A DNA stretch of 64,000 bases from Ancylobacter radicis (lineage in GTDB: Bacteria > Pseudomonadota > Alphaproteobacteria > Rhizobiales > Xanthobacteraceae), in assembly GCF_018449475.1 (NCBI RefSeq), contig NZ_JAHCQH010000014.1:1-64000 (forward strand). Direction: 5' to 3'. Position 1 is the first letter of the stretch. Each line of letters begins with the position of its first letter. Made by a program: the position numbers and the translations under genes. The notes under the pieces are model-generated. The model saw nothing but the letters and a program-made list of their open reading frames with translations, had not been told where the DNA came from and ran no database searches. Below are positions 27,373-36,230 of this stretch, one piece after another.

Positions 27373-27549
27373 GAATGCCTCCCATGCCCCGCATTGTTCC
27401 ATTCCAGGGCGGAATGGCCGGCGGGTGTGGTGGCATGGTACGTCAACTCGTGGATGAATGCTGCCCCATGGTAATCTGGACCCGATGGTGCCGGATGTTG
27501 CCCCGGTCGGGCGGTCGAATGCCCAGGCATTCGGGAGCTTTTGACCGAT

Positions 27550-27581
27550 AGGTGCAACCTTGTGCTTGCCGGGTTGCACCT
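27550..27581. promoter_or_regulatory. PutA operator (inverted GTTGCA sites)
   Basis: AGGTGCAACC at 27550-27559 and GGTTGCACCT at 27572-27581 form a perfect 10-bp inverted repeat with a 12-base gap. Each arm contains GTTGCA, the core bound by the ribbon-helix-helix domain of PutA in enterobacteria. It lies 44 bases upstream of a putA gene that encodes such a domain, so autoregulation by proline is the straightforward reading. Confidence 0.75.
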
Positions 27582-27588
27582 GTATGCT
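27560..27588 (+). promoter_or_regulatory. Candidate putA promoter
   Basis: TTGTGC (27560-27565), 17 bases, then TATGCT (27583-27588). The elements overlap the GTTGCA inverted repeat, so a bound PutA would block polymerase. Only a moderate match to sigma-70 consensus. Confidence 0.4.
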
Positions 27589-27624
27589 CTTGGCCATTCA
27601 TTTTGACGCGAGGAGAGCCGGGCC

Positions 27625-30600
27625 ATGTCTGCCACAACCATGGGCGTGAAGATCGACGAGGAGCTTCGGGCCCGGTTGAAGGCGGCGGCGGAGCGGCAGG
27701 GATGCACGCCTCATGCCCTTGTGAAACAGGCGATCATGCACGCGGTCGGTCGGGTGGAACTCGGTCTTCCGCCCCAGGCGGAGGAAGGGGGCGGCGACGC
27801 GGAGGCGGGGGTATCTCTTGAGGGGGTCGAGAGCCCGTTCCTGCCCTTCGCGCGCTCGATCCGGCCGCAGGGTGTGCTGCGGGCGCGGATCACCAATGCC
27901 TACCGGATGCCCGAGACCGAGGCGGTGCCGCTGCTGATCGGCGCGGCCGATCTGCCGGCCCCGCGCGCCGAGGCGGCAAGGGCCCGCGCGCAGGGACTGG
28001 TCGAGGCGCTCAGGGCGAAGGGTCAGAAGGGCCCGGTGGAAGGGTTGATCCACGAATATTCGCTCTCCAGCCAGGAGGGCGTCGCGCTCATGTGCCTGGC
28101 CGAGGCGCTGCTGCGCATTCCCGACCGGGCGACGCGGGACGCGCTGATCCGCGATAAGATCGGCCGCGGCGACTGGCAGTCCCATCTCGGACATAGCCCC
28201 TCGCTGTTCGTCAATGCGGCGACCTGGGGGCTGGTGCTCACCGGCAAGCTGACCACCACGTCGAGTGAGATTGGCCTGACTGGCGCTCTCACCAAACTCA
28301 TCGGTCGCGGCGGTGAACCCGTCATCCGCAAGGGCGTCGATGTCGCCATGCGGATGATGGGCGAGCAGTTTGTCACCGGCCAGACCATCTCCGAGGCGCT
28401 GGCCAATTCCCGCCGCATGGAGGCGAAGGGCTTCCGCTATTCCTTCGACATGCTGGGCGAGGCGGCCACCACCGAGGCCGATGCGCAGCGTTACCTCGCC
28501 GATTACGAGCAGGCGATCCATGCCATCGGCAAGGCCTCGGCCGGGCGCGGCATCTATGAGGGGCCGGGCATCTCGATCAAGCTGTCGGCCCTGCATCCGC
28601 GCTACAGCCGCGCGCAATATGGGCGCGTTATCAGCGAGTTACTGCCGCGTGTTAAAACGTTGGCGAAGCTCGCGCGGCACTATGACATCGGCCTCAATAT
28701 CGACGCAGAGGAAGCCGACCGGCTTGAAATCTCGCTCGACCTGCTGGAGGCACTGTGTTTCGATGAAGGCTTAAGTGGCTGGAACGGCATCGGTTTTGTC
28801 GTTCAGGCGTATCAGAAGCGCTGCCCTTATGTGATCGATTACCTGATCGACCTCGCGCGCCGCTCGAACCACCGCATCATGGTGCGGCTGGTGAAGGGCG
28901 CCTATTGGGACAGCGAGATCAAGCGCGCGCAAATGGACGGGCTGGAAGGCTTTCCGGTCTATACGCGCAAGATCCACACCGACATTTCCTATCTCGCCTG
29001 CGCCCGCAAGCTGCTGGCGGCACCCGACGCGGTGTTCCCGCAATTTGCCACCCACAACGCCCAGACGCTCTCCACCGTGATGGAAATGGCGGGCGCTAAC
29101 TACTATGCCGGACAATATGAATTTCAGTGTCTTCACGGCATGGGCGAGCCGCTTTACGAGGAAGTGGTGGGCCGCGAGAAGCTGGGCCGGCCGTGCCGCG
29201 TCTATGCTCCCGTCGGCACGCATGAGACGCTGCTCGCCTATCTGGTGCGCCGGCTGCTGGAGAACGGCGCCAACTCCTCTTTCGTCAATCGCATCGCCGA
29301 TGAGAGCGTGCCGGTCGAGGAACTGACCGAGAGCCCGGTCGAGGGCGCCCGGCGGATCGAGCCGCTTGGCGCGCCGCATCCGCGCATCGCCGCCCCCGTC
29401 GATCTGTTCGGGCCGGCACGCCGCAATTCGGCGGGGCTGGACCTGTCCAATGAGCAGCGCCTCGCCTCGCTCGCCGCCGCGCTGCTGGCCGGTAGTGCCG
29501 CCCCGGCGCGGGCGGTGCCGCTGCTGGGCGACGGGCCGGCTGCCGGTATCGCGCACGCCGTCACCAACCCTGCGGATCGGCGCGATGAGGTGGGCACGGT
29601 CGAGGAGGCGACGCCTGCCCTGGCGAGCCGCGCCATGGAGATCGCGCAGGCCAGCGCCCCGATCTGGCAGTCGACCCCGCCGGCCGAGCGTGCCGCCTGC
29701 CTGATGCGCGCGGCCGAGATCATGGAGGCGCGGCTGCCGGCGCTGATCGGTCTCATTGTGCGGGAGGCCGGAAAATCCTTCGCCAATGCTATTGGTGAAG
29801 TGCGCGAAGCCGTTGATTTTCTGCGCTATTATGGCGCCGAGGTGCGCGAGCGTTTCGCCGCCGAAACCCATCGCCCGCTCGGCCCGGTGGTCTGCATCAG
29901 CCCGTGGAATTTCCCGCTCGCCATCTTCACAGGGCAGGTGGCCGCCGCGCTGGCCGCCGGCAATGCGGTGGTGGCCAAGCCCGCCGAGGAAACGCCGCTC
30001 ATTGCCGCCGCCGCCGTCGAGATCCTGCGCGAGGCCGGGGTGCCGGCGGGTGCGGTGCAGCTTGTACCGGGCGCGGGGGACATTGGCGCGGCGCTGGTCG
30101 GGGATGCGCGCACGCGCGGCGTGATGTTCACCGGCTCGACCGATGTGGCGCGGCTGATCCAGCGCCAGCTTGCCGAGCGGCTGAGCCCGGAGGGTCGCAC
30201 CATTCCGCTGATCGCCGAGACCGGCGGGCAGAACGCGATGATCGTCGATTCCTCGGCGCTGGCCGAGCAGGTGGTGGCGGATGTGCTGGCCTCCGCCTTC
30301 GATTCCGCCGGCCAACGCTGCTCGGCGCTGCGCGTCCTCTGCCTTCAGGAGGACGTCGCCGATCGGGTTCTGGAGATGCTGCGCGGCGCCCTGCGGGAAC
30401 TCGTGGTCGGCAATCCCGTGCATCTGGCGACCGATATCGGGCCGGTCATCACCCCTGAGGCCAAGGCGATGATCGAGGCCCATGTCGAACGGATGCGCAA
30501 GGCAGGTCACCGCGTCGAGCAGACCGCGCTTTCCGAGGCGACCGGGCAGGGCAGCTTTGTGCCGCCCACCCTCATCGAGATCGACAGCATCGCCGCGCTC

Positions 30601-31458
30601 ACGCGCGAAGTGTTCGGCCCGGTGCTGCATGTGGTGCGCTACCGCCGCGACGAACTCGACCGGCTGATCGCGGATATCAACGCCACCGGCTATGGGCTGA
30701 CCTTCGGCCTGCACACCCGCATTGACGAGACCATCGCCCATGTCAGCCGCCGCATCGAGGCCGGCAATCTCTATGTGAACCGCAACATCATCGGCGCCGT
30801 CGTCGGCGTCCAGCCCTTTGGCGGGCATGGGCTTTCCGGCACAGGACCGAAGGCCGGCGGACCGCTTTATCTCGGCCGATTGCTGGCGACGCGCCCGGCC
30901 ATGCCCGCGCTGTCCGGCTATGCCCCCGAGGCGGCGCGGCTCTGGACCGACTTCGTGAACGAGCCCGCGACGCGCGAGCATTGCGGCGTCGTGCTCGCCG
31001 CCTCCCCCTGCGGCGCCGCTGTCGAGCTGGCGGGGCCTGTGGGCGAGCGCAACCTCTATGAGCTGGCGCCGCGCGGCACCGTGCTGTGCCTCGCCGCGAC
31101 CGAACGGGGGCTCGATGTGCAGATCGCCAGCGCCCTCGCCACCGGCAACAAGGTGCTGCTGCAGGGCAGCTCCATGCCCGCCCTGCCGGCGGGGATCGAG
31201 GATCGGTTCATCATCGTCGAGACCATCGAGGGGGTAGATTTTGATGCCGTGCTGTTCGAGGGAGATGGTGACGCATTGGCGCGGCTGAACCAGCTCGTCG
31301 CCACGCGCGAGGGCCCGATCGTTCTGGTGCATGGGCTCGATCCCGATGCTCTGGCACGCGGCGAGTGCTATCCGCTCGACCTGCTGATGCTGGAACGTTC
31401 GATCAGCACCAACACGGCGGCGGCGGGCGGCAATGCCAGTCTGATGAGCATCGGCTGA
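27625..31458 (+). CDS. putA: Trifunctional PutA: RHH regulator, proline dehydrogenase, P5C dehydrogenase
   Basis: 1277 residues. Oxidises proline to glutamate in two steps using FAD and NAD at the membrane, and represses its own gene when unreduced. The N-terminal ribbon-helix-helix (VKIDEELRARLKAAAERQ, about residues 8-45) is followed by the PRODH barrel (SIKLSALHPRYSRAQYG; LVKGAYWDSEIKRAQ). The aldehyde dehydrogenase domain has E865 (AETGGQN) and catalytic C899 (SAGQRCSALR), and a C-terminal domain follows. Length is close to the 1320 residues of the E. coli protein. GAGGAG precedes the ATG. A PutP transporter is not next door. Confidence 0.97.
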   Translation: MSATTMGVKIDEELRARLKAAAERQGCTPHALVKQAIMHAVGRVELGLPPQAEEGGGDAEAGVSLEGVESPFLPFARSIRPQGVLRARITNAYRMPETEAVPLLIGAADLPAPRAEAARARAQGLVEALRAKGQKGPVEGLIHEYSLSSQEGVALMCLAEALLRIPDRATRDALIRDKIGRGDWQSHLGHSPSLFVNAATWGLVLTGKLTTTSSEIGLTGALTKLIGRGGEPVIRKGVDVAMRMMGEQFVTGQTISEALANSRRMEAKGFRYSFDMLGEAATTEADAQRYLADYEQAIHAIGKASAGRGIYEGPGISIKLSALHPRYSRAQYGRVISELLPRVKTLAKLARHYDIGLNIDAEEADRLEISLDLLEALCFDEGLSGWNGIGFVVQAYQKRCPYVIDYLIDLARRSNHRIMVRLVKGAYWDSEIKRAQMDGLEGFPVYTRKIHTDISYLACARKLLAAPDAVFPQFATHNAQTLSTVMEMAGANYYAGQYEFQCLHGMGEPLYEEVVGREKLGRPCRVYAPVGTHETLLAYLVRRLLENGANSSFVNRIADESVPVEELTESPVEGARRIEPLGAPHPRIAAPVDLFGPARRNSAGLDLSNEQRLASLAAALLAGSAAPARAVPLLGDGPAAGIAHAVTNPADRRDEVGTVEEATPALASRAMEIAQASAPIWQSTPPAERAACLMRAAEIMEARLPALIGLIVREAGKSFANAIGEVREAVDFLRYYGAEVRERFAAETHRPLGPVVCISPWNFPLAIFTGQVAAALAAGNAVVAKPAEETPLIAAAAVEILREAGVPAGAVQLVPGAGDIGAALVGDARTRGVMFTGSTDVARLIQRQLAERLSPEGRTIPLIAETGGQNAMIVDSSALAEQVVADVLASAFDSAGQRCSALRVLCLQEDVADRVLEMLRGALRELVVGNPVHLATDIGPVITPEAKAMIEAHVERMRKAGHRVEQTALSEATGQGSFVPPTLIEIDSIAALTREVFGPVLHVVRYRRDELDRLIADINATGYGLTFGLHTRIDETIAHVSRRIEAGNLYVNRNIIGAVVGVQPFGGHGLSGTGPKAGGPLYLGRLLATRPAMPALSGYAPEAARLWTDFVNEPATREHCGVVLAASPCGAAVELAGPVGERNLYELAPRGTVLCLAATERGLDVQIASALATGNKVLLQGSSMPALPAGIEDRFIIVETIEGVDFDAVLFEGDGDALARLNQLVATREGPIVLVHGLDPDALARGECYPLDLLMLERSISTNTAAAGGNASLMSIG

Positions 31459-35252: not shown

Positions 35253-36230
35253 ATGCGCCGTTTCCTTGCCGCCGCCGCTTTCCTGCTCGCCTTTGCCGGG
35301 GCCGCCCATTGGGTGCTGCCCGCCGGGCGGCTGGCCTATGGGCTGATCGCCGCCGGGGATGATTCCGCGCGCATCGCTGATCTCCAGCTCGCCGGTGTGC
35401 TGGACGCAGCCCGCGCCGAGAGCGAGATCGCGGCGGCGCTGGCGGTCGATGATGGCGAGATGGCGCAGAGCTTCCTCGATCTCGCCGATGCGAGGGGTGT
35501 TAAAATACCTGTCGAGACCCGCGCGCGGGTGCTGCTGGCCAATAATGCGGGGGCCCAGGCGGCGCGCGGGGCGGGCAATTTCGGCCATGGTTTCGTGACC
35601 GGTGAGGTGGACGATGAGGCCAGTCTGGCCGGCTCTGTCGCGGGCGATCTAACGGTCTGGGGCGATGTGCGCGACCTCGGCCGGCAGGCGATCCACTGGG
35701 CGCGGGGCGAGCCGGTGGACGAATTCATGGTTGCACTGGCCGGCGTGGGTATCGTCGCCACGGGTGCAACCTATGCCGCGTTCGGGGCGCCACTCACCCT
35801 GCGCGCCGGCCTCAGCGTGGTGAAGGGCGCGCGCCGCGTCGGGGCCCTCGGCGGGCGTTTCGCTGGCCATCTGGTCGATGCGGCCCGTAGCGGGCGCCGG
35901 GTGCAGGCGGTGGGCGCGGTGGCCGATCTGGGGCGTGCCTCGACCAAGGCGGGCACGCGCGCCGCCTTTGCCGGTCTCACCCATGTCGACGATGCCGCCG
36001 GGGCCGCGCGCCTCGCCCGGCTTGCCGACGTCAAGGGCGGGAAGACGCTGGCCATCGTCAAGCTGCTCGGGCGCGGGGCGCTGTTCGTGACCGAAGCACT
36101 GGCCAAGCTCGCCTTCTGGACCATCGCCGCCCTCATCAACGTGATCGGCCTCGTCGCCTCCTTCAATGCGATGGGGGTGGCAATGGTTCGCCCGCTGTGG
36201 AGGCGCCGTTCGGGGTTTCTGCCGGCGTGA
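35253..36230 (+). CDS. Conserved hypothetical membrane protein
   Basis: 325 residues, no named family recognised. An N-terminal hydrophobic segment (RFLAAAAFLLAFAGAAHWVL) is followed by a helical Ala-rich region. A membrane pair then appears around FMVALAGVGIVATGATYAAF, and another near the C-terminus (LAFWTIAALINVIGLVASFN). The likely periplasmic segments contain repeated AGAARLARLADVKGGK-like helices. The start at 35253 (ATG after CATGTG) is favoured over 35169. Function unknown. Confidence 0.72.
   Translation: MRRFLAAAAFLLAFAGAAHWVLPAGRLAYGLIAAGDDSARIADLQLAGVLDAARAESEIAAALAVDDGEMAQSFLDLADARGVKIPVETRARVLLANNAGAQAARGAGNFGHGFVTGEVDDEASLAGSVAGDLTVWGDVRDLGRQAIHWARGEPVDEFMVALAGVGIVATGATYAAFGAPLTLRAGLSVVKGARRVGALGGRFAGHLVDAARSGRRVQAVGAVADLGRASTKAGTRAAFAGLTHVDDAAGAARLARLADVKGGKTLAIVKLLGRGALFVTEALAKLAFWTIAALINVIGLVASFNAMGVAMVRPLWRRRSGFLPA

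Follow-up and report, generated by a model that had tools for sequence, protein, structure and literature searches.

Does a trifunctional PutA repress its own gene in the alphaproteobacterium Ancylobacter radicis? The question is raised by an inverted repeat in front of putA, in a stretch of 64,000 nucleotides (referred to as the window, G000:C6) from a 4.2-Mb genome of the Ancylobacter genus group (Xanthobacteraceae). Judging from sequence comparison and from analogy with other PutA proteins, the two boxes in this region are very probably operators for PutA itself, with putA under autogenous repression by PutA. The features of the locus are as follows.

27550..27560, minus strand: PutA box A (putative), quasi-palindromic, reading AGGTTGCACCT on the minus strand and AGGTGCAACCT on the plus strand; exact match to the consensus.
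27560..27565, plus strand: possible −35 element, TTGTGC, called by eye; weak, 17 bp before the −10 element.
27571..27581, plus strand: PutA box B (putative), GGGTTGCACCT; one mismatch to the consensus, 21 bp start-to-start from box A.
27583..27588, plus strand: possible −10 element, TATGCT, called by eye; plausible.
27611..27615, plus strand: likely ribosome-binding site, AGGAG, called by eye; 9 bases before the ATG.
27625..31458, plus strand: putA, 1,277 aa, with RHH, PRODH, and P5CDH parts.
27625..27759, plus strand: N-terminal ribbon-helix-helix (RHH) DNA-binding domain, about residues 1–45 (PF21775 on residues 11–39; PDB chains on residues 1–44).

The original prediction held that putA encodes its own RHH domain, and this was borne out by two kinds of search. 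PF21775 matched residues 11–39 with 36.6 bits (cut-off, 27; E = 2.9e-9), and phmmer aligned residues 1–44 with PDB chains 2jxg, 2gpe, 2rbf, and 2ay0 (E = 6e-9 to 2e-7), which are PutA RHH domains from P. putida and E. coli. PutA of E. coli has the identical residue at 23 of the first 47 positions. T5, G7, K9, H30, and K34 are invariant in 13 aligned RHH sequences picked from 34 loci, and it is Thr5, Gly7, and Lys9 that contact DNA in E. coli PutA. Pfam models PF01619, PF00171, PF14850, and PF18327 match the PRODH/P5CDH part, and about 195 of the 1,277 residues, matched by no Pfam model, lie beyond the P5CDH match (after residue 1081). The length of the protein and this last stretch appear compatible with the type C architecture as defined in an excerpt of PMC5293562.

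The arms AGGTGCAACC (27550–27559) and GGTTGCACCT (27572–27581) are 100% complementary across a 12-nt spacer and lie 75 to 44 bases 5′ of the putA ATG at 27625, in agreement with the initial description of two perfect 10-bp inverted arms at this distance. The span first assigned to them, 27550–27588, does start with the first arm, but 27588 is the end of the plausible −10 element and not of an arm. Inverted symmetry alone is only mildly unusual, because 63 of 5,000 simulated versions of the 250-bp upstream stretch (order-1 Markov) also contained perfectly inverted 10-bp arms separated by ≤30; it is conservation that lifts the box above chance. GTTGCA shows no excess in the window (10 copies versus a mean of 23.4 in shuffles), and another GTTGCA pair at 35730/35765 was discarded, being inside a 353-aa open frame. 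As a separate observation, another small perfect palindrome, CGAATGCC-CA-GGCATTCG, occupies 27516–27533 immediately 5′ of box A; its exact form occurs in this strain only, among the 200-bp upstream regions of 81 RHH-bearing putA loci.

The conserved unit is the 11-bp box AGGTTGCACCT accompanied by a second box 21–24 bp away in any orientation, and the perfect inversion is incidental. We scored the 11-bp consensus AGGTTGCACCT on either strand, with ≤2 mismatches allowed within 200 bp of the putA start as the standard rule. The 81 RHH-bearing loci comprised 30 from the genus, 4 further members of its family or order, and 47 named loci (71 minus 24 duplicates, with near-identical metagenome loci still among the 47). 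A box was present at 30 of 30 genus loci and at 46 of the 51 other loci. Under the same rule, coding windows of RHH-bearing loci yielded a box in 17 of 1,142 cases and reversed upstream regions in 5 of 81, with no pairs in either control. The box is itself a quasi-palindrome in which GGT and ACC are near-invariant, the centre is mostly TGC, and the second box of the genus often has TAC, although these base counts are biased towards the consensus because the boxes were chosen by similarity.

The phased pair was found at 40 of the 81 RHH-bearing loci under the standard mismatch limit, leaving 41 without it. When we relaxed the rule to ≤3 mismatches in each box and ≤5 in total, 20–25 bp apart, pairs were found at 61 of 81 RHH-bearing loci, including 30 of 30 in the genus, versus 0 of 55 RHH-less loci, 0 of 1,142 coding windows, and 1 of 81 reversed upstream regions; 20 RHH-bearing loci had no relaxed pair. 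The observed spacings of the relaxed pairs were 21–24 bp. With spacing left unrestricted and ≤2 mismatches allowed, the genus loci together with other alpha-like ones gave 57 distances between successive boxes, 39 of them at 20–25 bp. A third, weaker box-like sequence was seen about 13–27 bases before the ATG at six loci (L014, L016, L017, L019, L034, and L035), 53–55 bp downstream of the first box; the window has none with ≤2 mismatches at that place.

Orientation is freer than spacing. Among the 61 relaxed pairs, 30 are direct, 20 are inverted like that of the window, and 11 are inverted the opposite way; for the 30 genus loci, the corresponding numbers are 21, 5, and 4. The arrangement of the window is common to its two nearest relatives (L009 and L010) and recurs, among others, in Inquilinus (L111–L114), in L110 (titled Mycobacterium), and in Roseomonas-like loci (L160–L162 and L166). 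Since orientation differs between species, we dropped perfect inversion as the functional feature. In our reading, orientation would drift while spacing does not because an RHH dimer with two-fold symmetry could accept a box either way round.

The box also emerged when seeds were taken from the sequences themselves. In the non-genus loci, no seed did better than the box, which occurred in 46 of 51; the best seed left after masking reached 20 of 51, and the best seeds of two control stretches reached 37 of 51 and 34 of 47. In the genus, the best seed in the remainder of the 200 bp after masking reached 15 of 30. The unmasked genus test is weak, as a control stretch, probably of conserved coding sequence, also reached 28 of 30, and we therefore put weight on the masked and non-genus tests.

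We then compared these loci with putA loci from the same family or order whose PutA lacks the RHH domain. Absence of the domain was judged from a match that stops short of it together with a motif search of the same frame, and by HMM for 15 rows; one locus, L048, is flagged, since a stop interrupts its match, apparently upstream of the true start. Over 450 bp, counted back from the start of the similarity match and not necessarily from the start codon, a box was present at 3 of 55 RHH-less loci and a pair 20–25 bp apart at none; box counts with and without the RHH domain are not independent trials, because domain and box trace back to a single origin on the tree. A divergent Lrp/AsnC gene was found at 21 of the 55 when all six frames were read (upstream stretches of at least 509 bases, below 1,000 in 17) and at 20 of 55 when the scan covered each locus's two longest divergent frames. 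An Lrp/PutR-like gene adjoins each of the four RHH-less PutAs nearest to that of the window (L042–L045). Upstream of RHH-bearing putA, the six-frame search over 1,500 bp (shorter for L033, L038–L041, and L165) found an Lrp-type gene at 0 of 81 loci, the window included.

Sinorhizobium-type control offers a partial parallel: Soto, in 2000, is said to have proposed PutA of S. meliloti as an autogenous repressor of putA, without a putR, and this PutA reportedly has no RHH domain. By this account, S. meliloti would resemble Ancylobacter in having an autogenously repressed alphaproteobacterial putA without putR and would differ from it in the missing RHH domain. The putA-putR systems of Agrobacterium, Rhodobacter capsulatus, and Caulobacter likewise represent putA control in the same class, but they use a separate PutR, and the 81 RHH-bearing loci have no such gene upstream. 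According to excerpts of PMC6168545, putR adjoins putA in many alphaproteobacteria and activates it, and this Lrp/AsnC activator is encoded divergently in Caulobacter and many others. The RHH domain is absent from R. capsulatus PutA (PMC5293562, excerpt).

Similarity to the operator of enterobacteria had been argued from GTTGCA, the core of the E. coli PutA operator. The same box does occur in the E. coli put region, several times within the 422-bp putA-putP gap (AGGTGCAACTT, AGGTGCAACCG, GAGTGCAACCT, and others), but the conserved operator is larger than GTTGCA and extends to GGTTGCACCT. The put system of enterobacteria and P. putida, represented by E. coli K-12, resembles that of Ancylobacter in its long PutA with a PutA-type RHH domain and in the GGTTGCACC/GGTGCAACC box that both have close to the start of putA. 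It differs in layout, in that the Ancylobacter boxes are 21–24 bp apart and the several E. coli boxes are spread across the gap. In a sample of the phylum, 22 further PutA-RHH loci had a box within 300 bp in 20 cases and none in 2. The putA-proximal pair was 10–11 bp apart at 13 of these 22 loci. At 13 Thiomonas-type and other beta-like loci, which are close kin, 10 of 15 successive distances were 33–34 bp. The phylum loci are labelled gamma- or betaproteobacterial because they group with E. coli in the trees, and "beta-like" on the basis of record titles and similarity. Whole-turn spacing suggests docking on the same face of the DNA, and because of shared ancestry it represents few independent observations.

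These comparisons bear on the possibility that a different transcription factor, for example one of the Lrp/AsnC proteins of this genome, binds the boxes while the RHH domain of PutA acts elsewhere or not at all. We regard this as improbable. The window genome does contain five matches to a putA-adjacent PutR-like protein, and PutR is used by some alphaproteobacteria (PMC6168545, excerpt), but the five matches are only 28–37% identical and no such gene was found in the stretch searched upstream of the 81 RHH-bearing putA genes. Moreover, the box tracks the RHH domain in the genus, class, and phylum samples, and RHH-less loci lack the phased pair whether a putR-like gene is present or not. The same box also occurs in E. 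coli, where the putA/putP spacer is the sole target of PutA (PMC8249747, excerpt).

We infer the position of the likely putA promoter by eye, because a sigma-70-like consensus scan of the region upstream of putA found no site above threshold. One box touches the likely −35 element, and the other lies between the likely −35 and −10 elements. What we observed directly is the sequence, the RHH domain, and how the boxes are conserved and spaced; from homology with PutA of E. coli, Salmonella, and P. putida, we infer binding, repression, and a proline switch as follows. When proline is low, PutA dimers would bind both boxes through their N-terminal RHH domains, and with the boxes about two helical turns apart, the dimers would sit on the same face of the DNA. 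Because the distal box adjoins the likely −35 element and the proximal box lies between it and the likely −10, bound PutA would be expected to exclude RNA polymerase and so repress putA. When proline is abundant, PutA would act as a membrane enzyme, off the DNA, and putA would be derepressed.

PutA might instead bind the boxes and activate putA, or act as a dual regulator, which we consider quite unlikely. In excerpts of PMC9132996, Ralstonia PutA is reported to act positively on its own promoter, its activity being enhanced by proline, and R. solanacearum PutA is described as a positive, global regulator. However, the footprint mapped there on the epsA promoter is a sequence unrelated to the Ancylobacter box, and boxes on or between the likely promoter elements, themselves predicted, occupy the position of a repressor. 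Enterobacterial and P. putida PutA are also repressors (PMC5879082, excerpt). Least probable is a chance palindrome or a transcript hairpin with no protein ligand, since, although the simulations show that such repeats do arise by chance, the box is present in 30 of 30 congeners versus 15 of 30 for the best remaining seed, the direct repeats at 21 genus loci are unable to pair as a hairpin, a terminator search found none, and the arms lie 5′ of the likely transcript start, as predicted from the promoter.

We also searched the genomes for additional boxes. In the window genome, the exact inverted pair is unique. Single near-matches (≤1 mismatch) occur at 16 places versus 32 for a control pattern, so there is no enrichment, and none of the 14 near-matches outside putA has a partner box (≤2 mismatches) within 80 bp. 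These searches give no support to a PutA regulon reaching beyond putA in the window genome. Excerpts of PMC8249747 list E. coli PutA as a single-target regulator, and no convincing second pair was found in the window genome either. Across the 30 genus genomes, pairs were searched with ≤2 mismatches in all and one fixed spacing per pattern. Direct pairs occurred at 29 places versus 4 for the control; 19 of the 29 are at putA, as are all 13 with ≤1 mismatch. The window genome has another direct pair (G000:C6:305124; two mismatches in all), inside an aldehyde-dehydrogenase-like frame. Opposite inverted pairs were found at 7 places (5 at putA) versus 1 for the control. For inverted pairs of the window type, it is the location that is informative and not the number, because the control places (6) exceed the 4 found, 3 of which are at putA.

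A palindrome resembling the PutA box, of the form GGCTGCACC-N13-GGTGCAGCC, was noticed as a separate site in four genus genomes, where it is orthologous (L298, L300, and L303 near 1501; L304 near 1504). It lies at a gene junction, seemingly in a flagellar cluster as judged by eye from FliR- and FlgJ-like frames.

The E. coli put system has a divergent putP, and the Ancylobacter locus has none. The divergent neighbour of putA matches Glyco_hydro_72, and a search of the 30 genus genomes with the putP model TIGR02121 gave no match over the cut-off and weaker matches in 9. In this genus, the transporter part of the circuit known from E. coli seems to be absent or different.

The RHH domain, the conserved box, its occurrence in E. 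coli, the RHH-less loci without pairs, and the 81 RHH-bearing loci without an adjacent putR-like gene together argue for a PutA operator with autogenous control in an alphaproteobacterium, as originally proposed on the basis of this one locus. On this comparative evidence, the site is probably an ordinary but well-supported PutA operator in this branch. PutA self-control in alphaproteobacteria is not wholly new in print, as an excerpt of PMC6168545 states that putA of R. capsulatus is under the control of both PutA and PutR; we found no description of an operator of this kind in Ancylobacter among the best-matching open-licence literature. The alphaproteobacterial set (Ancylobacter, Aquabacter, Inquilinus, Roseomonas-like, and other loci) appears to follow the E. 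coli pattern, in which the enzyme would repress its own gene, and not that of activation by PutR. From this set come a consensus for the operator and a rule for the spacing. The four most similar RHH-less PutAs, beside PutR-like genes, provide a natural contrast that makes it testable how a metabolic enzyme acquires or loses a regulatory role.

More tentatively, we can envisage one PutA operator grammar across proteobacteria, in which a quasi-palindromic GGTTGCACCT box would be repeated at whole helical turns (about one on the putA side in E. coli-like loci, two in alphaproteobacteria, and three in Thiomonas-type loci), with orientation free and dimers on one face of the DNA. Such a system would exclude an Lrp-type PutR switch, and gain or loss of the RHH domain would switch putA between enzyme-mediated repression and activation through a dedicated sensor. 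The Ancylobacter circuit may be a minimal case, with a regulator that targets only its own gene.

The RHH-box association has a single origin and long conservation, with some losses or weakenings of the box. RHH presence requires one change on a 67-row FastTree tree, and a 48-row IQ-TREE tree contains a branch that separates the RHH-less rows from the others (SH-aLRT 94). In the latter tree, the 11 gamma/beta RHH rows group together, with the alphaproteobacterial rows outside it, so that recent transfer from gammaproteobacteria is not needed; a single clade of alphaproteobacterial RHH rows was not rejected (AU P = 0.536). One locus titled Gammaproteobacteria, L122, falls among the alphaproteobacterial rows of the 67-row tree and was left out of the 48-row tree. 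PF21775 matched in 23 of 385 genomes drawn from the class, a lower bound given that the model is short, and 13 of these (the window's included) have the match in frames of 1,283–1,359 aa. Eight short frames of 88–153 aa were set aside, as the six that were read look like stand-alone RHH proteins and not PutA. Two Aquabacter genomes are among the RHH-bearing loci (L141 and L154), and putA of another Aquabacter species is annotated as trifunctional (PMC11059613, excerpt).

Five of the 81 RHH-bearing loci (L121, L125, L150, L151, and L157) are without a box at ≤2 mismatches within 200 bp; L121 and L125 have boxes with three mismatches only, and L151 has no box. L150 and L157 come from Ferrovibrio-type genomes of the same record series, which carry two RHH-bearing PutA copies each (L130 with L157, and L133 with L150) that are 77–78% identical. 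Only one copy per pair has a box within 200 bp, and the boxless copies, L157 and L150, may have abandoned self-control.
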